DNA of 64,000 bases from Actinotalea lenta (GTDB lineage: Bacteria; Actinomycetota; Actinomycetes; Actinomycetales; Cellulomonadaceae), in assembly GCF_030586465.1 (NCBI RefSeq), contig NZ_JAUQYP010000001.1, positions 124,001 to 188,000 of the forward strand, read 5' to 3'. This document shows, piece after piece, positions 40,181 to 49,719 of the stretch; the first letter of the stretch is position 1, and every line of letters starts with the position of its first letter. The notes beneath the pieces were generated by a model, which did no database searches, had not been told where the DNA came from, and saw nothing but the letters and a program-made list of their open reading frames with translations. The position numbers and the translations under genes are program-made.

Positions 40181-40711
40181 TCAGGCCGCCGACTCCTCGG
40201 TGGCCCGCTTCTCGCGCAGGGCATCGATGGTGCGCACGGCCTGGGAGGTCGGCGCGGTGAACAGGTAGGCGGCCTGGTACAGCTTGGCCTTCATGGCGCC
40301 GGCCGCCTTGGCCAGCAGGACCTCGCGGGACTCGAGGTCCGCGAGCGTGGTGATCTCGTCCGCGGTCATCGGGCGGCCGTCCATGACGCCCCCCTTGACC
40401 ACGAGCTGAGGGTGGGCCTTGGCGAAGTCACGCAGCCCCTTCGCGACGGCGACCGCGTCACCGTCGACGAACGCGATCGCTGACGGCCCCTTGAGCTGGA
40501 CGTCGAGACCCTCGACGCCCGCCTCACGGGCCGCGATCGCGGACAGCGTGTTCTTCACCACGGCGTAGGTGGCGTTCCCGCGCAGCGCCGTGCGCAGCTC
40601 CTTGAGCTGGGACACGGTGAGCCCGCGGTACTCGGTCAGCACGACCGCGCTGGACTCGCGGAACCTGTCCGCGAGCTCGGCGACGGCGGCCGCCTTGTCC
40701 GGCCTCGCCAT
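40181..40711 (-). CDS. rplJ: 50S ribosomal protein L10
   Basis: Stalk base that binds L7/L12 dimers. The 176-residue product starts [40 protein letters not shown] and has [14 protein letters not shown] and the C-terminal L12-binding helix. The ATG at 40709-40711 has GGAGTG before it. In this genome rplJL is separated from rplKA by 7.8 kb, so it needs its own promoter. Confidence 0.97.
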
Positions 40712-40759
40712 GGCACTCCTTCCGATGAGTGGAGCCGCAGGCGAGGCCTCGCATGAGAA

Positions 40760-40785
40760 GAGCCCCGTGCGCAGGCACGGGGCTC
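40760..40785 (-). promoter_or_regulatory. leader hairpin of rplJ
   Basis: Perfect 11-bp stem (40760-40770 with 40775-40785, arm GAGCCCCGTGC) with a 4-nt loop, followed on the minus strand by TTCTC. It lies 48 nt before rplJ, where other bacteria have the L10 leader that L10-L12 binds to repress itself; it could be an attenuator or part of such a site. Confidence 0.5.
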
Positions 40786-40908
40786 GCATCATCCGGGAGC
40801 ACATGGCTCCGGACCGGAGTCTCTCACCTGCGCGGGCCTCCGCTCGGAGCGGGACTTCGGTCTGCCGCCACGGGGACGGCCGACGACCTGCGGTCTTGGG
40901 CAGCGGTC

Positions 40909-40938
40909 AGGGTACGCGACCGTGCGGGCCCGCGACAA
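40909..40938 (-). promoter_or_regulatory. candidate promoter of rplJL
   Basis: Minus-strand TTGTCG (40938-40933), 18 bp, TACCCT (40914-40909). Leader about 190 nt, containing the hairpin. Confidence 0.38.
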
Positions 40939-41072
40939 CTCGCGGACCGCCGCCGGGCCCGCCAGCGCGACGCAGGCGGATCGTCGGTACACGTCACACG
41001 GGGGTCTCGGCTGACTCTAGGAGGGATGAAGGCCGCGTAGCGCCGCGGAAGACGACCACCGGGAGCCCCGTC

Positions 41073-41879
41073 ATGACCGCCCTGTCGCACCACCGCCCTG
41101 GCCCCACCGAGGAACGCCCCGGCGAGACGCCGGACACGGTGAGGGCCGGGCCGGTGGACCTGCGCGCCTGGCTCGGGGGGACGGGGCGCCCACAGCTCGA
41201 CGTCCCGCTGGCCCCGACGCCGCCACGCCTCGCCGGGGCTCGTACCCCGCGGGTGGCGCTCGTCGGTGGTGGGGTGGACCGGCAGCACCCGGACCTGGCC
41301 GGCGCGCACGTGGTGGTGTGGCCGGGCGGCCGCGGGCTCGCGCCGGACGTCACCGCGACGGCGTACGCGTCACTCCTGGTCGGCCAGGGTGTGGCGCACG
41401 CGCGTGGCCTGGTGCCCGACGCCGTGCTGCTGGTCGCAGCGGTGGAGCACCCGGACGAGCCGAGCACGGACGCGGCGACCGCCCGGGCCGTCCGATGGTG
41501 CGTCGGTGCGGGCGCCGAGGTGATCGTCCTGCCCTATGGGCGCAGGCGACTGGGCCGCCGCCTGACAGTCACGCTGCACGCGGCGATGGCGCACGGCACG
41601 CGGGTGTTTGCAGCGGCGGGCGACCTGGGCCCCGACATCCTGACGTTCCCCGGCTCCGTCACGGGCGTGGTCGCGGTGACCGCCCACGACGGTTCCCGGC
41701 TGCTCGCGGGGTGCTCCGCGTGCGCCGACATCGCCGCCCCCGGGGCCGACGTCCCGGCGGCCGGGCCCCGCTCCCGGACGAGGCTGCGTGGGTCGGGGGC
41801 GGCGACCGTGCTCGCCGCCGGGGCCCACCTCACGGCCGTCGCGGCCGAGCCCGACACCGCGCCCCTCCTGCTGCGTTGA
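41073..41879 (+). CDS. subtilase-fold pseudoprotease (S8-like, catalytically dead)
   Basis: A 268-residue cytosolic protein without signal peptide. From about residue 58 it follows the subtilisin (S8) pattern: VALVGGGVDRQHPDLAG, VTATAYASLLVGQGVAHARGLVPDAVLLVAAV, RVFAAAGDLGP, GVVAVTAHD, CADIAAPGADV and RGSGAATVLAAGAHLTAV. At the positions of the triad and oxyanion hole it has Gly65 for Asp, Thr94 for His, Asp184 for Asn and Gly242 for Ser. The reading frame is intact, so this looks like a retained pseudoenzyme rather than a decayed gene. It converges on the CHAT gene with 25 bp between stops. ATG at 41073 chosen; GGGAG lies upstream. Binding partner is unknown. Confidence 0.8.
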   Translation: MTALSHHRPGPTEERPGETPDTVRAGPVDLRAWLGGTGRPQLDVPLAPTPPRLAGARTPRVALVGGGVDRQHPDLAGAHVVVWPGGRGLAPDVTATAYASLLVGQGVAHARGLVPDAVLLVAAVEHPDEPSTDAATARAVRWCVGAGAEVIVLPYGRRRLGRRLTVTLHAAMAHGTRVFAAAGDLGPDILTFPGSVTGVVAVTAHDGSRLLAGCSACADIAAPGADVPAAGPRSRTRLRGSGAATVLAAGAHLTAVAAEPDTAPLLLR

Positions 41880-41904
41880 GCTCGTCAGCGCCGATCCGGC
41901 GCAC

Positions 41905-44454
41905 TCAGGGGCGCGTCGCGAAGCAGGCGAGAGGTACGGGGTCACCGGGGTCCACCGCCGCGAGCGCCTGCGACGCTGTCGCCCCGGTCCGCAGCGCCCG
42001 GTGGACGGTCGGCATGAGGTGCGCCGCGACGTCGTCCCGCAGCGGGGCCAACGCGGCAACCACGGCGTCGGCGCCGAGCCGCAGCAGGACGCTCGCCAGC
42101 CCGAGCACCTCGCCGCCAGGTCGCACCGTGGCTCGGCCCACCTCGCACGCGGACAGCACGACGACGGACCCGCACAGGTCGATCCCTTCGAGCTCGTGGG
42201 CGAACAGCGGTCCATCGACCAGCCGGAGCCAGGAGAACAGCGGGTTGTCGGGCTCGTGGCGGCCGTGGGCCGCCAGGTGCACGACACCGGCTCCGGCCAG
42301 CCCCGCCGCGGTCGCGCGCGCAGTGGCAGCGGTCCCGGTCAGGGCCTCGGTCCCCCAGATCCGGGCCACCGCCTCGACCTCCTGCGCCGCGTCCACCAGC
42401 CCCGGGCCTGCGACGACGAACGCTCCCGCGTGCCGCCGGGGCGGTGCCCCCACCCCGAGTCTGGTGCCCACGCTGGTGGGCAGCCCGCGACGCGACGGCA
42501 GCAGTCCCCACGGTAGGGTCACGAGCTCGCCGCCCACCGCGAGGTGCATGGGGCCGTCCACACCGAGCGGAGCCAGCAGGGTCGCGTCCGCCCAGGCGAG
42601 CCCGCGGTCCAGAGAGCCGCGGACCACCTGGCGCATCGGTACCGGCAGGTGGGCCGCCGAGAGCGCGTGCAGGTCCGCGCCGATCCGACGCGCGACGCGG
42701 CTCACCTCGTCGGCCTCAGCGAGATGGTGCAGGCGCGCACCGCTGGCGTCGACCACCACCGCGTGCACGGCACCGTCGAGCGTCACCACGTCCACCACAG
42801 CGCCCTCGGTGCCCGCACGCCCGGCGATCAGTGCCTCCGCGGTCGGCGCCTCGGGCGGACCGAGCTCGCCGTCCAGGTGCCACGACCGCTGGCGGGCGGC
42901 CGCGCGCAGGCGGACGATCTCGCGCTGCGTTGCGCGCTCGGCCGCGGCATCCGGCGGCAGGGCTCGTTCGCGCTCGACGGCGAACCGCAGCTCGGCGAGC
43001 AGGTCGGCGAGCACGGGATCCGCCGGGGGACGAACCCTCGCAGGGCCGGCGAAGGTCGCCCGCCCGCGCTCCGTCGCCTCGAGCACCGCGCGCGGGTCCT
43101 GGGCACGCAGCGCGGCCCTGAGCTCGACCGCGGCCAGGCGCTCACCGATCACCGCTGCTGCGGTCACCGCCTCGACCGAGCCGAACTGGCGTCGGTGCTC
43201 GGCGAGCAAGGCCTGCCCTGCCGCGACCTGTCGGCGGCCGGCCGCGGCGAGGCCCGAGTCGAAGTCGAGCTGGGCGGCGACCGCGCGCCATCCGAGCGCC
43301 AGGGTGAGGGGCTCGCGGCCGGTCAGGCGGCCGGCGGCCGCCAGAGCGTCACGCGCCTCGCGAGACCGACCCGCCGATGCCAGGGCGGCCGCCCGTACGA
43401 GCCGGGCCTGGCGGGCACTCGTGCGATCACCACCGGCCCGCTCGGTCCGGTCCGCGAGGTCAGCCGCGCGGCGCGCGAGGCGAAGGCGCACCCCGGGGCC
43501 GGCCCCGTCCCGCAGGGCGAGCTCGAGCCCGGCTCGCAGCTCCGCGAGCTCGGCCCGCGCCAGCCATGGCAGGTTCCCGCGCCGCGCCAGCCGCCGCCGG
43601 GCCTGCTGGGCCCAGCGGCGGCCCTCGTCCGGACGGCGCAGCAGCACCGCGCACGCCGAGCGCGAGATCTCCACCTGGGCCAGGTCCAGCGCCAGTCGCT
43701 GGTCGGCGAAGATGCGCCCCGCGCGCGCGAGCGTCTCGTCCGCCTCCGTCACGAGGCCGGCCTCGAGCAGCACCTGGGCGCGGTCCAGCAACGGGATGGC
43801 TTCCGACCCGCCCTCGCTGTCCTCGGCAGCGGCCGCCATCGTGGCCAGCGCGCGCGGAAGGTCCCCGGCCAGGAACTGCGCGTAACCCAGGTTGTGCCGC
43901 GCCTTGAACGCGAGGCGACCGTCACCGATGGTCTCGGCGCGCTCCGCGCACTGCACGAGGTCCGCCTGTGCCCGGCCGATCTCGCCCCGCTCGAGGAGGA
44001 GGGTGCTGCGGTTGAGGAGGATGCAGCACGCATCCACCGGATCGGCCAGGTCCAGCCGGGCCACCGCGGCGTCATGGTCGGCCAGAGACCTCCCTGCGTC
44101 CCCCGCACGCAGCCAGAGCAGGCCGCGCTGGCCGAGCACCGCCACCGCCGTGCCCGCGTCACGTGCGTCGGCGGCGTCACGTTCTGCCTCGTCGAGCATG
44201 GCCAGGGCCTCGTGGATGTCGGCACGCAGCTCGAAGTCGCTCATCACGAGCCCGAGGAGCGCCCGGGCCCGCACCCGTCGCGCCTGAGTCGACCGCTCAC
44301 CCGCAGTCGGGCCCCCGTCGCCCAGCGCCTCGAGGCGGCGCAGCGCCGCACGGAACCGCGCCGACGCAGCCGCCGGACGCCCGTCGGCGTTCGCGGCGAG
44401 ACCGGCGGCGAGTGCTCGCTGCGCCTCGGCCAGCGGGTCAGGTCCGGCGGCCAT
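41905..44454 (-). CDS. TPR-like/CHAT domain protease
   Basis: A 849-residue cytosolic protein. The N-terminal roughly 500 residues are Ala/Leu/Arg-rich helical repeats with TPR-like spacing (LGYAQFLAGDLPRALATM, NRSTLLLERGEIGRAQADLVQ). The C-terminal about 300 residues are a CHAT domain of the caspase/separase clan: VVHLAAHGRHEPDNPL carries the catalytic His (about 730), and VVVLSACEVGRATV the catalytic Cys (about 770). Known TPR-CHAT proteases cleave specific partners on a signal; target and trigger here are not known. The ATG at 44452-44454 shares a base with the S8 gene stop (TGATG); an ATG 42 nt upstream is an alternative. Confidence 0.88.
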   Translation of the reverse strand: MAAGPDPLAEAQRALAAGLAANADGRPAAASARFRAALRRLEALGDGGPTAGERSTQARRVRARALLGLVMSDFELRADIHEALAMLDEAERDAADARDAGTAVAVLGQRGLLWLRAGDAGRSLADHDAAVARLDLADPVDACCILLNRSTLLLERGEIGRAQADLVQCAERAETIGDGRLAFKARHNLGYAQFLAGDLPRALATMAAAAEDSEGGSEAIPLLDRAQVLLEAGLVTEADETLARAGRIFADQRLALDLAQVEISRSACAVLLRRPDEGRRWAQQARRRLARRGNLPWLARAELAELRAGLELALRDGAGPGVRLRLARRAADLADRTERAGGDRTSARQARLVRAAALASAGRSREARDALAAAGRLTGREPLTLALGWRAVAAQLDFDSGLAAAGRRQVAAGQALLAEHRRQFGSVEAVTAAAVIGERLAAVELRAALRAQDPRAVLEATERGRATFAGPARVRPPADPVLADLLAELRFAVERERALPPDAAAERATQREIVRLRAAARQRSWHLDGELGPPEAPTAEALIAGRAGTEGAVVDVVTLDGAVHAVVVDASGARLHHLAEADEVSRVARRIGADLHALSAAHLPVPMRQVVRGSLDRGLAWADATLLAPLGVDGPMHLAVGGELVTLPWGLLPSRRGLPTSVGTRLGVGAPPRRHAGAFVVAGPGLVDAAQEVEAVARIWGTEALTGTAATARATAAGLAGAGVVHLAAHGRHEPDNPLFSWLRLVDGPLFAHELEGIDLCGSVVVLSACEVGRATVRPGGEVLGLASVLLRLGADAVVAALAPLRDDVAAHLMPTVHRALRTGATASQALAAVDPGDPVPLACFATRP

Positions 44455-46142
44455 CAGTGCGGGGTGAGCCCCGTGGTCTCGGTGATCGCCCGCCATGCTG
44501 CCGCGCAGCGCCGCTCGGTCGACTCCCCCCAGGCCGCGGGCTCGGCCGGTGACTGCTCCTCGCGCTCGCGCAGCAACGCCTCGGCGAGGTCGCCGCCCAG
44601 CACCGGCGCGCTGAACGAGGTCCCGCTCCAGATCCCGAAACCGCCGGCGAACGAGTCCGGGTCGACGGTCCGCCGGATCTCACCGCGGTGGCCGCCCGCC
44701 AGGTCCCGGGTCGCGCTGAGCGCGCCGGTGAGCTCGACCGGCATGGTGCTCACCACATCGGCGCCAGGCCGGACGCACGTGACCCATGGACCGTCGTTGC
44801 TGAACAGCGCCGTGCTGCCGTCCGGGTTCTGGGCGCCCACCGCGAGCAGGGGCGGCACGGTCGGGTCGAGCGGCGCGGCCGGGGTCGGCGGGTGCCAGTG
44901 CGCCAGCCGCGGGGCGAAGGCTGCGGGGTGCATCGGCCGGGTTGTGCCGTCGTTGCCTGCCGAGGCGACGATCGCGACCCCGGCCCTGGCCAGACCGAGC
45001 AGCACCCTGCCGAGTGGACCGTCGAAGTCCACGTCCTCCGGCCGCTCGTGGTAGTACCCGAACGAGAGCACGAGCACGTCGATCGGCAGGTAGCCCTTGC
45101 GGCCGCTGACCCCGAGCAGGTGGTACGTGAGCAGCCGGCGCAGGCTGCGCATCAGGTCGTGCTCCTCGATGGCACCCGAGCCGCCGTACAGCGCCGCGGA
45201 GACGATCACCGCGTCGGGGCAGCGCTGGTGCACGAGCCCGCTGATGAACGTGCCGTGCCCGGTGGCGGCGTCCAGGGGTCCCGTGAGCGGGGCCACGGTC
45301 ATCCCGCGTCCCTCGGTCGCGCCGGGCGTCCCCACCGGCACGCCGAGCACCTGCGGGTCGCGCACCACGACGGAGTCGGGGAACCACGGGTGCGTGCGGG
45401 TCCCGGTGTCCAGCAGCGCGACCACCGGCCGCGTCGTCCCGTCGGCGGACCGCAGGACGTCCGCACCGTCCGCGTGCCGCCGGTGAGGACGCGGACCGAC
45501 CCAGGCTGTGGGCGTGCGCCCACCCGAGCCCGGCACGGCGTACTCGGTCAGACCCGCGTACGGCAGCGGCTGGGTGAACGGCAGCGGCTGGGTGAACGGC
45601 AGCGGCTGGGTGAACGGCAGCGGCTGGGTGAACGGCAGCGGCTGGGTGAACGGCAGCGGCTGGGTGAAGGGGTTCCCGCCGATCCCGACGGTGGCGGCCA
45701 GGACGTGGTCGAGGGCCGCGACCGCCGGCGCCCCCGTCTTGTCCACCAGGTCCTCCAGCAGCGGCCACGCGTCCACCGGGTGCCGGACCTCACCGGGCTC
45801 CGCGCTGATCCGCACGCCGAACCCGGCATGCTCCAGGACGAACGCGTAGGCGTCGTCCGGCAGGTCCGCCCGGCCGAGGACCTCGAGCTCGCGCACGTCC
45901 CTCGGATCGACGCTGACCACCCAGCCGCGCTCCCGGGCGAGCTCGGCGAGCGTGGCGAGCTCGCTGCCACGCAGCTCCGGCGTGCCGGCCAGGAGCACGG
46001 TGTCCTCGAAGTACGACGTCGTCATCGGCCGCGCCGAGTCCGCGCGGCGAACCGCGGTTGCCGGGTCGAGCATGCGGACCCGACCTGCGAGCGGATCGTG
46101 CGGGTCGGGCTCCGCCGACCCCGGGACCTTCGGTGCGACCAT
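44454..46142 (-). CDS. intracellular S8 subtilisin-like protease with FTQPLP repeats
   Basis: A 562-residue serine protease with the triad Asp245 (VALLDTGTRTHP), His296 (GHGTFISGLV), Ser509 (SGTSFSAPVLGG) and oxyanion Asn397 (SAGNDG). No signal peptide is present, unlike most subtilases. Residues about 40-155 form an N-terminal domain I do not recognise, and 159-194 are six exact FTQPLP units that act as a Pro-rich linker. The ATG at 46140-46142 has GGGGAGGAG at good spacing. It is 34 bp after the 160-residue protein gene and coupled to the CHAT gene. Self-cleavage or cleavage of a partner is possible but not shown. Confidence 0.9.
   Translation of the reverse strand: MVAPKVPGSAEPDPHDPLAGRVRMLDPATAVRRADSARPMTTSYFEDTVLLAGTPELRGSELATLAELARERGWVVSVDPRDVRELEVLGRADLPDDAYAFVLEHAGFGVRISAEPGEVRHPVDAWPLLEDLVDKTGAPAVAALDHVLAATVGIGGNPFTQPLPFTQPLPFTQPLPFTQPLPFTQPLPFTQPLPYAGLTEYAVPGSGGRTPTAWVGPRPHRRHADGADVLRSADGTTRPVVALLDTGTRTHPWFPDSVVVRDPQVLGVPVGTPGATEGRGMTVAPLTGPLDAATGHGTFISGLVHQRCPDAVIVSAALYGGSGAIEEHDLMRSLRRLLTYHLLGVSGRKGYLPIDVLVLSFGYYHERPEDVDFDGPLGRVLLGLARAGVAIVASAGNDGTTRPMHPAAFAPRLAHWHPPTPAAPLDPTVPPLLAVGAQNPDGSTALFSNDGPWVTCVRPGADVVSTMPVELTGALSATRDLAGGHRGEIRRTVDPDSFAGGFGIWSGTSFSAPVLGGDLAEALLREREEQSPAEPAAWGESTERRCAAAWRAITETTGLTPH
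45562..45669 (-). repeat. six tandem 18-bp units in the S8 protease gene
   Basis: Plus-strand unit GGCAGCGGCTGGGTGAAC repeats six times with only the last base of the final copy changed. It stays in frame and encodes the FTQPLP series. Near-identity at the DNA level suggests recent expansion and possible length variation by slippage. Confidence 0.97.
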
Positions 46143-46176
46143 CGACGTCTCCTCCCCTGCGGGCCGCGACGGCTCG

Positions 46177-46659
46177 CTACAGCTCGATCACCGGCGTGCT
46201 GACGGCCGGCCCCGTGCCGTCGGACCGGCGCAGCACCAGGCTGGCCGGGCCCGTCGGCACGTCCTCCAGGACGAAGCACCCCTCGTCGTCCGACTCGGTC
46301 CGGATCTCGCCGTCCGGGCGGAACAGTGCGACGTCGCACCGCACAGCCGGTGCGATCCATCCGTCGACCCGGATCCCGCCCGCACCGGGCGACAGGGTGA
46401 TCATGACCGTGCACGGGTCCGCCGTGAAGGTCACGGTCCGCGCCGTGACGGTCTCCTCGCCGCGCAGCGCCGGTTCGGGGGTCTGCAACCGGACCAGTTC
46501 GACCAGCTCCGACTCCAGCCCGTCGAGCGTGATCGCGAACAGTGCACGGTCCGCCAGACCGTCCGGCACGGGGTCCACCGTGCGCACGACCCGGCCCAGC
46601 CGCGCCAGCAGGGTCCGGTCGCGGGCGTCCATCGGCTCGTCCGGCGAGTACTCCGTCAT
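46177..46659 (-). CDS. sigma-coupled beta-rich protein of unknown function
   Basis: A 160-residue soluble protein. Residues 12-60 are predicted helical (RDRTLLARLGRVVRTVDPVPDGLADRALFAITLDGLESELVELV); residues 72-160 are beta-strand rich with VTFTADPCTVMITL, GWIAPAVRCDVALFRPDG, and DDEGCFVLEDVPTGPASLVLRR, a pattern like carboxypeptidase-regulatory/Ig-like folds. I do not recognise a named family. The ATG overlaps the sigma stop as ATGA, so production is coupled to the sigma factor; it could modulate that factor, but it has no membrane segment and no classic anti-sigma zinc motif (HxxxCxxC). Confidence 0.75.
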   Translation of the reverse strand: MTEYSPDEPMDARDRTLLARLGRVVRTVDPVPDGLADRALFAITLDGLESELVELVRLQTPEPALRGEETVTARTVTFTADPCTVMITLSPGAGGIRVDGWIAPAVRCDVALFRPDGEIRTESDDEGCFVLEDVPTGPASLVLRRSDGTGPAVSTPVIEL

Positions 46660-47276
46660 GACCATTCCCATCTGTCGTCCTGGTCGAGCAGCGCCCGCAG
46701 CTTGGCCAGGCATCGTCCGCGCGTCACGCCGACGGCGGTCACCTTCATCCCGGTCACCTCCGCGATCGCGCGGTAGTCGGGCCGGTCGGCAGCCGCGACG
46801 CACCGCAGGATCTGCCGACACCGTTCTGGCAGCCTGGCGAACACCCGCCACAGGGTGCGGTCGCGCTCGGTCTCCAGCAGGTGTCGCTCCGGACCGACGC
46901 CGGCGTCGGGCACCTCGCCCGCCTCGTCGATGTCGTCCGGCAAGGGCCGCGCCCGCGCCGCGGCGGCTCGGGTGCCGCGCACCGCGGACCACGCTGCTCG
47001 ACGGGCGCTGACCAGCAGCCAGGCCAGCGCGGCCTGCGGTTCGCGGATCGTCTCGGCGTGCCGGACGAACGAGACCCAGACGCCCTGGACCACGTCCTCG
47101 GCCTGCTCACGGGCCACGCCCTGCCCCCGCACCACGTGCCAGAGCAGAGGGGTGGCATCTCGGACGAAGGCCTCGAAGGCTCCGGTTCGCCCCTCGCGGT
47201 ACTCCACCAGCGCACGCGCGCCGCGCTCGCCGAGCGTCATTGCGTGCGCCTGATCTGTCACCGTCGGGTGCTCCAT
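46656..47276 (-). CDS. ECF-type RNA polymerase sigma factor
   Basis: A 206-residue sigma-70 family protein. Region 2 spans about 36-100 (FEAFVRDATPLLWHVVRGQGV, EDVVQGVWVSFVRH), and region 4 about 145-197 (LPERCRQILRCVAA, DYRAIAEVTGMKVTAVGVTRGRCLAKLR) with a helix-turn-helix. Region 3 is missing, as in ECF sigmas. ATG start, no strong ribosome binding site. It heads a four-gene operon (sigma, 160-residue protein, S8 protease, CHAT protein). Its promoter target is unknown; a dyad GCGTG-ACG-CACGC lies upstream near 47322-47334. Confidence 0.9.
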   Translation of the reverse strand: MEHPTVTDQAHAMTLGERGARALVEYREGRTGAFEAFVRDATPLLWHVVRGQGVAREQAEDVVQGVWVSFVRHAETIREPQAALAWLLVSARRAAWSAVRGTRAAAARARPLPDDIDEAGEVPDAGVGPERHLLETERDRTLWRVFARLPERCRQILRCVAAADRPDYRAIAEVTGMKVTAVGVTRGRCLAKLRALLDQDDRWEWS

Positions 47277-47469
47277 GGGGGCAAGCCGTCCTGTCGACCT
47301 CGGGGTGCGAGACTACGGGGAGCGTGACGCACGCCACAAGGCGCAGGGCGCACCGCTCCTACCCATGACGGAGGACGGGACCGAGCGCCGGTGACACCCA
47401 CGCTGCGAGGTGACATGTGATCTCGGTCACGCACGCTCGCCTGACCCTCGACCGGACCAAGGAGAGCCT

Positions 47470-48411
47470 GTGCCCCATCCCCTGGACACCGCCGGAGCCG
47501 TGGAGCTCGCCGTCGTGGACCGCGACGGGCTGCCCGAGTCCCGCCACCTGGGTGCTGCCGCGCTGGTCGACGCCGACGGCCGGCTGATCGAGTCGCACGG
47601 AGACATGGCCGCCGCCGTCTACCCGAGATCGGCCCTCAAGCCATTCCAGGCTGAGGTCTCCCTGGCGGCCGGCGCACCGCTGGAGCCGGTGCAGCGCGTG
47701 CTCGCCTGCGCCAGCCACGCGGGCACAGACGAGCACGTCGCGGTGGTCTCGCACGTGCTGCGCGACGCCGGGCTGGACGAGGGTGCGCTGGGCTGCCCCG
47801 TAGCCGCCCCGCTCGACCCCACCACGGCCGCGCGGGTCGAGACGAGCCGGCTCCGTATGAACTGCTCCGGCAAGCACGCTGCGTTCCTCTCGGCCTGCGT
47901 CACCGCGGGCTGGGACACCGCGACCTACCTCGAACCGTCCCACCCGCTGCAGCGGGCCGTGCTCGCGAGCGTGCAGGACCGGTGCGGTGAGCACGTCGCG
48001 CACACCGGCACCGACGGGTGCGGGGCCCCGGCCCACGCGCTCACCCTGCCAGCCCTGGCGCGCGGCGCCTCCCGACTGCTCGGGCCGGGCAGCGCCCTGG
48101 CGGACGACGTCCGCGCGCACCCGTGGGCCCTGGACGGCCCGGGTCGGGCGAACACCCGAACGGTGGAGGCCACAGGGGCGGTGGCCAAGGTGGGCGCCGA
48201 GGGGTACCTGCTCGTGGTCGCCCCCGGCGGCGCCGCGGTCAGCCTCAAGGTGCTGGACGGTTCGCAGCGCGTGACGACGTTCGTCGCGCTGTCCCTGCTG
48301 GCGCGCGCCGGGGCGCTGGACCCCGACGTGGTGGCGCCGCTGCTCGCCGAGCTCACGCCCCCGCCCACGGGTGGCGGGCACGTCGTCGGCAGCTGGCGGC
48401 TGAGCGTGTAG
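47470..48411 (+). CDS. L-asparaginase II family protein
   Basis: A 313-residue protein of the thermolabile asparaginase family first described in Rhizobium, unrelated to the E. coli type. Conserved elements are YPRSALKPFQAE, CASHAGTDEHVAVV, MNCSGKHAAFLSAC, GTDGCGAPAHALTL and GRANTRTVE. It would hydrolyse asparagine to aspartate and ammonia in the cytosol. GTG at 47470-47472 has AAGGAG at good spacing. It faces away from the sigma operon and converges with rplA. Confidence 0.9.
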   Translation: MPHPLDTAGAVELAVVDRDGLPESRHLGAAALVDADGRLIESHGDMAAAVYPRSALKPFQAEVSLAAGAPLEPVQRVLACASHAGTDEHVAVVSHVLRDAGLDEGALGCPVAAPLDPTTAARVETSRLRMNCSGKHAAFLSACVTAGWDTATYLEPSHPLQRAVLASVQDRCGEHVAHTGTDGCGAPAHALTLPALARGASRLLGPGSALADDVRAHPWALDGPGRANTRTVEATGAVAKVGAEGYLLVVAPGGAAVSLKVLDGSQRVTTFVALSLLARAGALDPDVVAPLLAELTPPPTGGGHVVGSWRLSV

Positions 48412-48415
48412 CACA

Positions 48416-48445
48416 GCGGCCCGGCCCCCGAGGGGACCGGGCCGC
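48416..48445. terminator. bidirectional terminator between asparaginase gene and rplA
   Basis: Inverted repeat 48416-48429 with 48432-48445 (outer arm GCGGCCCGG, one C/A mismatch). It lies 5 bp past the asparaginase stop and 44 bp past the rplA stop. Confidence 0.75.
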
Positions 48446-48488
48446 AGTCACGTGCGGTGCGCCGGCTCGCGGCGTGGAGACTCGACCG

Positions 48489-49208
48489 TCAGGCCACGTC
48501 CTCCTCGACGAGCAGCCCGCGCGTCTTGTTCGGGTCGAGCGGGACGCTCGGGCCCATCGTCGTGGCGACGAACGCCTTGGTGATGTAGCGCCCCTTGGAG
48601 GCCGACGGCTTGAGCCGCAGCACCTCCTCCAGCGCCGCGGCGTAGTTCTCCACCAGCGCGGTGTCGGAGAAGGACACCTTGCCGATGATGAAGTGCAGGT
48701 TCGCGTGCTTGTCGACGCGGAACTCGATCTTGCCGCCCTTGATGTCGGACACGGCCTTGGCCACGTCCATCGTCACGGTGCCGGTCTTCGGGTTCGGCAT
48801 CAGACCCCGCGGGCCGAGCACCTTGCCGAGCCGGCCGACCTTGCCCATCAGGTCCGGGGTGGCGACCGCTGCGTCGAAGTCGGTGTAGCCGTCCGCGACC
48901 TTGGCGATCAGGTCGTCCGCACCCACCTCGTCCGCGCCGGCGTCGATCGCCTGCTGGGCGCGGTCGCCCTGGGCGAAGACGATGACCCGCGCGGTCTTGC
49001 CGGTGCCGTGGGGCAGGTTGACGGTGCCACGGACCATCTGGTCGGCCTTGCGGGGGTCGACTCCGAGCCGGAAGGCGACCTCGACGGTCGCGTCGTACTT
49101 GGCGGTGGAGGTCTTCTGCGCCAGGCGGATCGCCTCGAGCGGCGGGTACAGCCGAGTCTTGTCGATCGTCGCCGCCGCGGCGCGGTAGGCCTTGCCGTGC
49201 TGTGCCAT
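48489..49208 (-). CDS. rplA: 50S ribosomal protein L1
   Basis: L1-stalk protein that releases E-site tRNA; in E. coli it represses its own operon. The 239-residue product starts [31 protein letters not shown] and has [44 protein letters not shown] and [19 protein letters not shown] at 49206-49208. It is 79 bp after rplK. Confidence 0.98.
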
Positions 49209-49287
49209 GGTCTCTCCTTCGAGTCGTGGTCGTCGGGCCGCACAGGGCCCTGCCACTGGGAGGACGGGCCGGTCGGCCCGCCCCGGG

Positions 49288-49719
49288 TCAGTCGTTGACC
49301 GTGATGCCCATCGAGCGGGCGGTACCGGCGATGATCTTGGCCGCGGCCTCGATGTCGTTGGCGTTCAGGTCAGCCATCTTGGTCTCGGCGATCTCGCGCA
49401 CCTGGGCGCCCGTGATCGAGGCGACCTTGGTGGTGTGCGGGGTCGGAGAACCCTTGGGGACACCGGCGGCCTTCTTGATCAGCTCGGCGGCCGGCGGAGT
49501 CTTGAGGATGAAGGTGAAGGACCGGTCCTCGTAGACCGTGATCTCCACCGGCACGACGTTGCCACGCTGCGACTCCGTCGCGGCGTTGTACGCCTTGCAG
49601 AACTCCATGATGTTGACGCCGTGCTGACCCAGCGCAGGCCCGATGGGCGGCGCGGGGTTCGCGGCACCGGCGTTGATCTGGAGCTTGATCAGGCCGGCGA
49701 CCTTCTTCTTCGGGGGCAT
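49288..49719 (-). CDS. rplK: 50S ribosomal protein L11
   Basis: GTPase-centre protein and thiostrepton target. The 143-residue product has [45 protein letters not shown] and [35 protein letters not shown]. The proline-rich N-domain that binds thiostrepton is wild type in appearance. It follows nusG by 94 bp. Confidence 0.98.

Follow-up and report, generated by a model that had tools for sequence, protein, structure and literature searches.

A widespread actinobacterial sigma factor-protease module in which sequence evidence suggests that one protease recognises a species-specific tag on another

ECF54 is an actinobacterial group of ECF sigma factors (Huang 2015 and Casas-Pastor 2021, as cited in PMC8999054) whose genomic context has been recorded as including carboxypeptidase, subtilase and CHAT neighbours, and for which control of the sigma factor by proteolysis has been proposed, with no experiment (PMC8999054). 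In the type III-E CASP/craspase systems (Cas7-11, Csx29, Csx30 and CASP-sigma), Csx29 is a TPR-CHAT protein, and its cleavage target, Csx30, inhibits the sigma factor (PMC10028731). Pro-subtilisins such as pro-Tk-subtilisin (2e1p) and pro-subtilisin E (3whi) consist of a prodomain and a subtilisin catalytic domain. Finally, in RRNPP quorum sensing, peptides of five to seven residues are bound by TPR receptors.

The locus described here lies in a 64,000-nucleotide stretch of Actinotalea lenta DNA (the window). Its core of four genes, coding for an ECF-type sigma factor, a 160-residue protein (x160), an S8 protease and a TPR-CHAT protein, matches the ECF54 context, likewise an actinobacterial ECF sigma factor with carboxypeptidase-type, subtilase and CHAT neighbours, and is not a discovery; the match is one of gene context, in which the sigma factor, S8 and CHAT are clear and x160 shows a weak CarboxypepD_reg similarity. 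The first-pass annotation had not seen described the combination of these genes with a fifth one, coding for a pseudoprotease. The four-gene part of that combination is not new, since PMC8999054 already lists it for ECF54; the link to the pseudoprotease does appear to be additional. Beyond the ECF54 core, a promoter shared with the co-regulated pseudoprotease gene, an array of hexapeptides in the S8 protein and the covariation of this array with the TPR part of the CHAT protein appear to be new, as none of them is described in the accessible literature, outside which the primary papers on ECF54 fall.

The module resembles craspase in joining a TPR-CHAT protease, an ECF-type sigma factor and a third protein, and differs from it in several respects. 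An S8 enzyme provides it with a second protease; x160, a small protein made of a hairpin and an Ig-like domain, has no detected relation to Csx30; and the CHAT protein matches the NCBIfam Csx29 model only weakly, with an E-value of 3e-5 and a score of 22.9 bits where the cut-off is 300. Moreover, no CRISPR gene, Cas7-11 or crRNA array was recognised in the neighbourhoods of the loci read. The presence of a TPR-CHAT protease beside a sigma regulator makes for a reasonable analogy, and the scheme of the first-pass annotation, in which a triggered protease would cleave a partner and so release the sigma factor or another effector, is plausible. The S8 protein has the prodomain and catalytic domain of pro-subtilisins, but carries between them a tandem array of units of five to seven residues, and no signal peptide was seen. 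With RRNPP signalling the module would share the idea of a TPR groove recognising a peptide of five to seven residues, which we propose from covariation; here, however, the peptide forms repeats within a protease, with no exported precursor, and the TPR and CHAT protease domains belong to one protein.

Overall, the analysis suggests that the module is a widespread, unstudied four-gene unit of actinobacteria in which a species-specific tag on one protease is recognised by the other. Our main reading, to which we give a probability of about 0.55, is that the repeats serve as the docking site of the TPR-CHAT protein on the S8 zymogen and that the two proteases form a self-amplifying switch controlling the sigma factor. 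It is supported by the operon, by intact active sites, by the shared promoter, by repeats that selection appears to hold identical and by the covariation between TPR and repeats.

The coordinates and reading frames that the first-pass annotation gave for the five-gene region were confirmed, and its gene calls (an ECF sigma factor, a 160-residue protein, an active S8 protease, a CHAT protein and a dead subtilase) are borne out by Pfam matches and catalytic residues. The sigma gene (46656..47276, minus strand) encodes 206 amino acids with sigma-2 and sigma-4 regions, recognised from Pfam and NCBIfam matches (Sigma70_r2, 7e-8; sigma70-ECF model, 1e-17, above cut-off) and from syntenic orthologues. 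Through an ATGA overlap it is joined to the x160 gene (46177..46659, minus strand), whose 160-residue product combines an N-terminal helical hairpin (residues 12-28 and 35-59) with a seven-strand Ig-like sandwich (74-145). After a gap of 34 bp comes the S8 gene (44454..46142, minus strand; 562 aa; Pfam Peptidase_S8, 3e-11). The CHAT gene (41905..44496, minus strand; Pfam CHAT, 2.3e-25) encodes 863 amino acids, or 849 if its start is at 44454, in a TGATG overlap with the S8 gene, and bears a caspase-like His744/Cys784 dyad. Facing it, 25 bp beyond its stop, lies the pseudosubtilase gene (41073..41879, plus strand; 268 aa; Pfam Peptidase_S8, 2e-7), situated between CHAT and rplJ and conserved in the genus. 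Judged by sequence, the active sites of both S8 and CHAT are intact: the S8 triad and oxyanion asparagine (D245, H296, N397 and S509) are invariant in 50/50 homologues, and the CHAT dyad in 17/17. A Pfam search with the CHAT protein of the window gave no TPR match; the family profile, however, closely matches TPR structures and TPR_12 matches occur in relatives, which supports the TPR-like part proposed at first. The first-pass annotation had noted neither the shared promoter nor the hexapeptide array encoded within the S8 gene. An asparaginase-like gene (47410-48411, plus strand) adjoins the sigma operon in divergent orientation, a pairing that, among the loci read, is common only to the window and its closest relative (L031).

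Conservation of the four-gene core extends across Actinomycetota. Named genomes were scanned with the S8 alignment as query, and all four genes were present in 74 of the 80 actinobacterial loci thus obtained, a recurrence far beyond chance, though one that measures association and not prevalence because S8 served as the query; the exact order sigma-x160-S8-CHAT was found in 62 of the 80. A long S8 form was encoded by 63/246 genomes of one family (about a quarter) and 11/250 of another. In relatives across the family, the four genes stand in the same order between nusG-rplK-rplA and rplJ-rplL-rpoB. The order rplK-rplA-rplJ-rplL-rpoB is interrupted by the module at rplA/rplJ in many genera of the family (window 40181-49719; L029-L044), an unusually stable insertion point for a regulatory unit. 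In other classes, gene order varies (S8-sigma-x160-CHAT, or a divergent CHAT gene) while the adjacency of sigma and x160 is kept. The idea that the genes form one unit is thus upheld by the four-gene order conserved across Actinomycetota and by the predicted sigma promoter of the dead subtilase gene; as to whether the neighbourhood is conserved beyond a few relatives, this holds widely for the four-gene core, whereas the pseudosubtilase is limited to the genus of the window. In distant actinobacterial classes (L165, L166, L169, L172 and L173), the sigma-x160 pair was present and S8 and CHAT were not found in the stretch read, which suggests that no part of the module is older than this pair. 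The S8 match of one locus (L267, G870:C111) contains one in-frame TGA, perhaps because the gene is disrupted or was misassembled.

A role in defence, which had been put forward for this locus, finds no support here. TPR-CHAT proteins do act in craspase and in other bacterial death systems, and PADLOC gave a weak BovA match for the CHAT protein; it gave no substantial match, searches of phages and plasmids returned one phage match and one match to a chromosome-sized "plasmid", and throughout a family the module keeps to one position, in the rplA-rplJ region. As none of these searches yielded anything of substance, we regard an anti-phage or abortive-infection system as very unlikely.

An unsupervised motif search upstream of 15 sigma genes recovered one shared motif, with a total score of 434 against 272-285 for shuffled sequences. 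Its conserved form, GTCACR-N16-CTCY, precedes both the operon and the pseudosubtilase gene. In the window, the predicted sigma promoter of the operon (GTCACC-N16-CTCC; 47370..47395, minus strand) lies 119 bp upstream of the sigma start, and that of the pseudosubtilase (GTCACA-N16-CTCT; 40993..41018, plus strand) 80 bp upstream of its start. Across eight loci, amounting to 376 kb of strand-bases, there are 15 matches to the core GTCAC[ACG]N16CTC[CT]. Of these, 14 are correctly oriented and precede a sigma or pseudosubtilase gene by 30-190 bp, which makes the dead subtilase a probable member of a small regulon of the sigma factor. In whole genomes of six relatives, the strict motif was matched 0-4 times each, mostly at the sigma and pseudosubtilase promoters; a large regulon was dismissed in view of these few matches, several of the extra ones falling inside unrelated genes. 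In other genera, a GTATCR variant of the motif precedes the sigma operon. Only two relatives, both outside those six (L198 and L199; G011:C6 and G008:C395), carry a gene for a 723-residue M66-like metallopeptidase, with the predicted sigma promoter in its strict form about 130 bp upstream, a possible third member of the predicted regulon. In another locus (L204, G031:C1:4370130), a second ECF sigma gene is preceded, at about 150 bp, by a copy of the GTATC-type motif that may be there by chance.

The facing gene reads as that of a maintained pseudoprotease, since its catalytic residues are lost (His in 8/8 orthologues, Ser in 7/8, Asp in 5/8) yet the orthologues remain 48-59% identical to the copy of the window. 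It was found only in the genus of the window, in nine genomes, all nine of which also contain the operon. That it is simply a decayed duplicate of the S8 gene in the operon was ruled out by this conservation in nine genomes, by the predicted promoter of its own and by an S8 similarity that is only distant.

The likeliest partner of the sigma factor is x160, because it is encoded beside the sigma gene. Genes for anti-sigma factors or co-regulators usually adjoin their sigma gene. The adjacency is kept in nearly all loci, including those in whose surroundings S8 and CHAT were not detected, and x160 is thus a probable candidate regulator, conceivably an inhibitor, of the sigma factor. Its CarboxypepD_reg match (0.035) is below the Pfam cut-off and its model has an Ig-like fold; neither sequence nor fold searches gave a match to a known anti-sigma domain. 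The proposal made for ECF54 on the basis of conserved context (PMC8999054, section 3.3) dispenses with an anti-sigma factor altogether: the neighbouring proteases would inactivate the sigma factor by degrading it directly. Against such a scheme, x160 adjoins the sigma gene in nearly every arrangement, and the sigma factor shows no covariation with the repeat unit; we hold it to be doubtful. It concerns the output step, however, and direct degradation and docking of the two proteases can hold together.

The repeats on which docking would take place are a tandem array forming the disordered stretch between the two domains of the S8 protein. The S8 model comprises a confident N-terminal, prodomain-like domain (residues 22-149), a disordered repeat linker (153-208) and the catalytic domain, and its best matches among solved structures include pro-subtilisins, aligned over both domains. 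In the window, the array consists of six copies of PFTQPL (45564..45671, minus strand), encoded by 18-bp units with one silent difference; a genome search found no hexapeptide array elsewhere in the same genome. Arrays were detected in 87/117 S8 homologues and in two further sets (17/20 and 45/50), nearly always with a period of six and sometimes of five or seven. A protein with an array has 3-12 identical hexapeptide copies, and the unit differs among species; the 56 distinct hexapeptide units conform to a class pattern, [N/H]-P-[F/Y/L/M]-x-polar-small.

Copies within a protein differ far more at silent than at replacement sites, with pS 0.45, pN 0.025 and pN/pS 0.055 over 78 arrays, and similarly in the second (0.52, 0.023 and 0.044) and third sets (0.54, 0.022 and 0.040), although detection of arrays by exact repetition lowers pN. 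Had the copies arisen by recent duplication, they would still agree at silent sites; as these have diverged, the sequence evidence supports selection holding the copies of a protein alike. The array of the window is itself silent on selection because its copies are nearly identical DNA, and recent slippage alone, while true of these copies, is ruled out for the family by pN/pS across the three sets. These data bear on the view that the array is a mere flexible spacer or self-cleavage linker whose sequence is incidental, any covariation with the TPR part reflecting phylogenetic hitch-hiking. Tandem repeats do arise by slippage, the array is predicted to be disordered and some lineages are devoid of it, but the purifying selection that keeps copies identical after silent-site divergence, replicated in two further sets, and the conserved residue-class pattern argue against an incidental sequence. 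The array is not indispensable, since it is absent or degenerate in S8 proteins of the Promicromonosporaceae type. Lineages with an array-less S8 carry two tandem CHAT genes after the S8 gene (L040, L044, L109 and L110).

Covariation was examined by independent contrasts over 84 taxa, in which the charge of the unit was compared with that of every column in all four proteins. Complementarity is strongest at a cluster of columns in the TPR part of CHAT (191, 226, 186, 232 and 230; best r -0.61), and family-wise P values against units simulated on the tree were 0.0005 for CHAT, 0.05 for S8, 0.07 for x160 and 0.89 for the sigma factor. When charge is ignored, the TPR half of CHAT tracks unit identity more than the caspase half does, a difference reached in 0/400 simulations at either rate. 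Raw mutual information, which takes no account of charge sign, places columns 191 and 232 at the top, in that order, with z values of 4.6-4.8 that are borderline against a family-wise 95% bound of 4.66. Both columns correspond to position 2 of consecutive TPR motifs, as assigned by hand on the TPR consensus, and in the window they are occupied by C158 (44023..44025, minus strand) and K198 (43903..43905, minus strand). Position 2 is among the peptide-contacting positions in solved TPR complexes (PMC1261162). Column 191 holds K or R mostly with acidic units, and N, D or S with basic units. The idea that the array is a substrate read by the active site of CHAT or S8 was set aside, given the little covariation in the caspase half and in the S8 catalytic domain.

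The charge rule was fixed before further genomes were fetched, and CHAT sequences already used were removed. In this out-of-sample set, some genomes of which belong to clades sampled earlier, column 191 was K or R with 12/14 acidic and 0/6 basic units (Fisher P 0.0007, relatedness ignored), and column 232 followed with 13/14 and 1/6 (Fisher P 0.002, relatedness ignored). Phylogenetic hitch-hiking could find some comfort in the borderline unsigned test. Congeners with units of opposite charge nevertheless have opposite TPR residues: in one genus, a PYGRTN unit goes with T and a PYEQTN unit with R (L295/L296), and in Nocardioides, a PHNRGN unit goes with D and the units PHNEPT and PHNQPD with K (L146 versus L105/L122). 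An incidental spacer is, in our estimation, an unlikely explanation. Whether a charge code linking position 5 of the unit to position 2 of the TPR motifs sets species-specific recognition between CHAT and S8, and so insulates a self-amplifying, sigma-controlling cascade, is in our view evenly balanced.

The same covariation is open to a different reading, in which the repeats are a multi-copy peptide precursor: S8 would cut its own linker, and the freed hexapeptides would activate CHAT by binding its TPR domain in an RRNPP-like manner. The unit length of five to seven residues fits this scheme, as do copies that are identical within a protein and differ between species, and Rap phosphatase is among the TPR structure matches. 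Most units contain a proline followed by a hydrophobic residue, a pattern after which subtilisins can cut. Contiguous, spacer-free units are equally expected for docking, however, and neither a signal peptide or exporter nor a separate precursor gene was seen. The S8 catalytic domain, moreover, covaries little with the unit. Release of peptides from the array thus seems improbable to us.

From the evidence favouring docking we infer a physical contact between the proteases and an order of zymogen activation. The TPR groove of CHAT would dock on the hexapeptide repeats that connect the inhibitory prodomain of S8 to its catalytic domain, where several identical repeats might raise avidity or let one S8 zymogen gather several CHAT molecules. 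Docking could place CHAT at a linker that, once cut, releases the S8 domain; alternatively, it could hold both proteases in check. A trigger would then start a two-protease cascade removing a partner of the sigma factor, perhaps x160, and the freed sigma factor would raise expression of its own operon, in a positive loop, together with that of the pseudosubtilase. The latter might act as a brake, capping the response by binding a partner, such as a protease or its ligand, without cutting.

If this proposal is true, an annotated but unstudied neighbourhood becomes a testable proteolytic circuit, for which a likely protein-protein contact, specificity-setting residues, a reporter promoter and a co-regulated pseudoprotease are in hand. 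It would also constitute a second, CRISPR-free case of TPR-CHAT proteases tied to sigma factors. More than 50 natural peptide units with matching TPR sequences provide a resource on the evolution of TPR peptide specificity. Finally, one locus (L130, L159 and L161) harbours two S8-CHAT pairs whose hexapeptides differ, being HPMYDG or HPLYDG in one pair and PFTSGG in the other, and offers a natural test of insulation between pairs.
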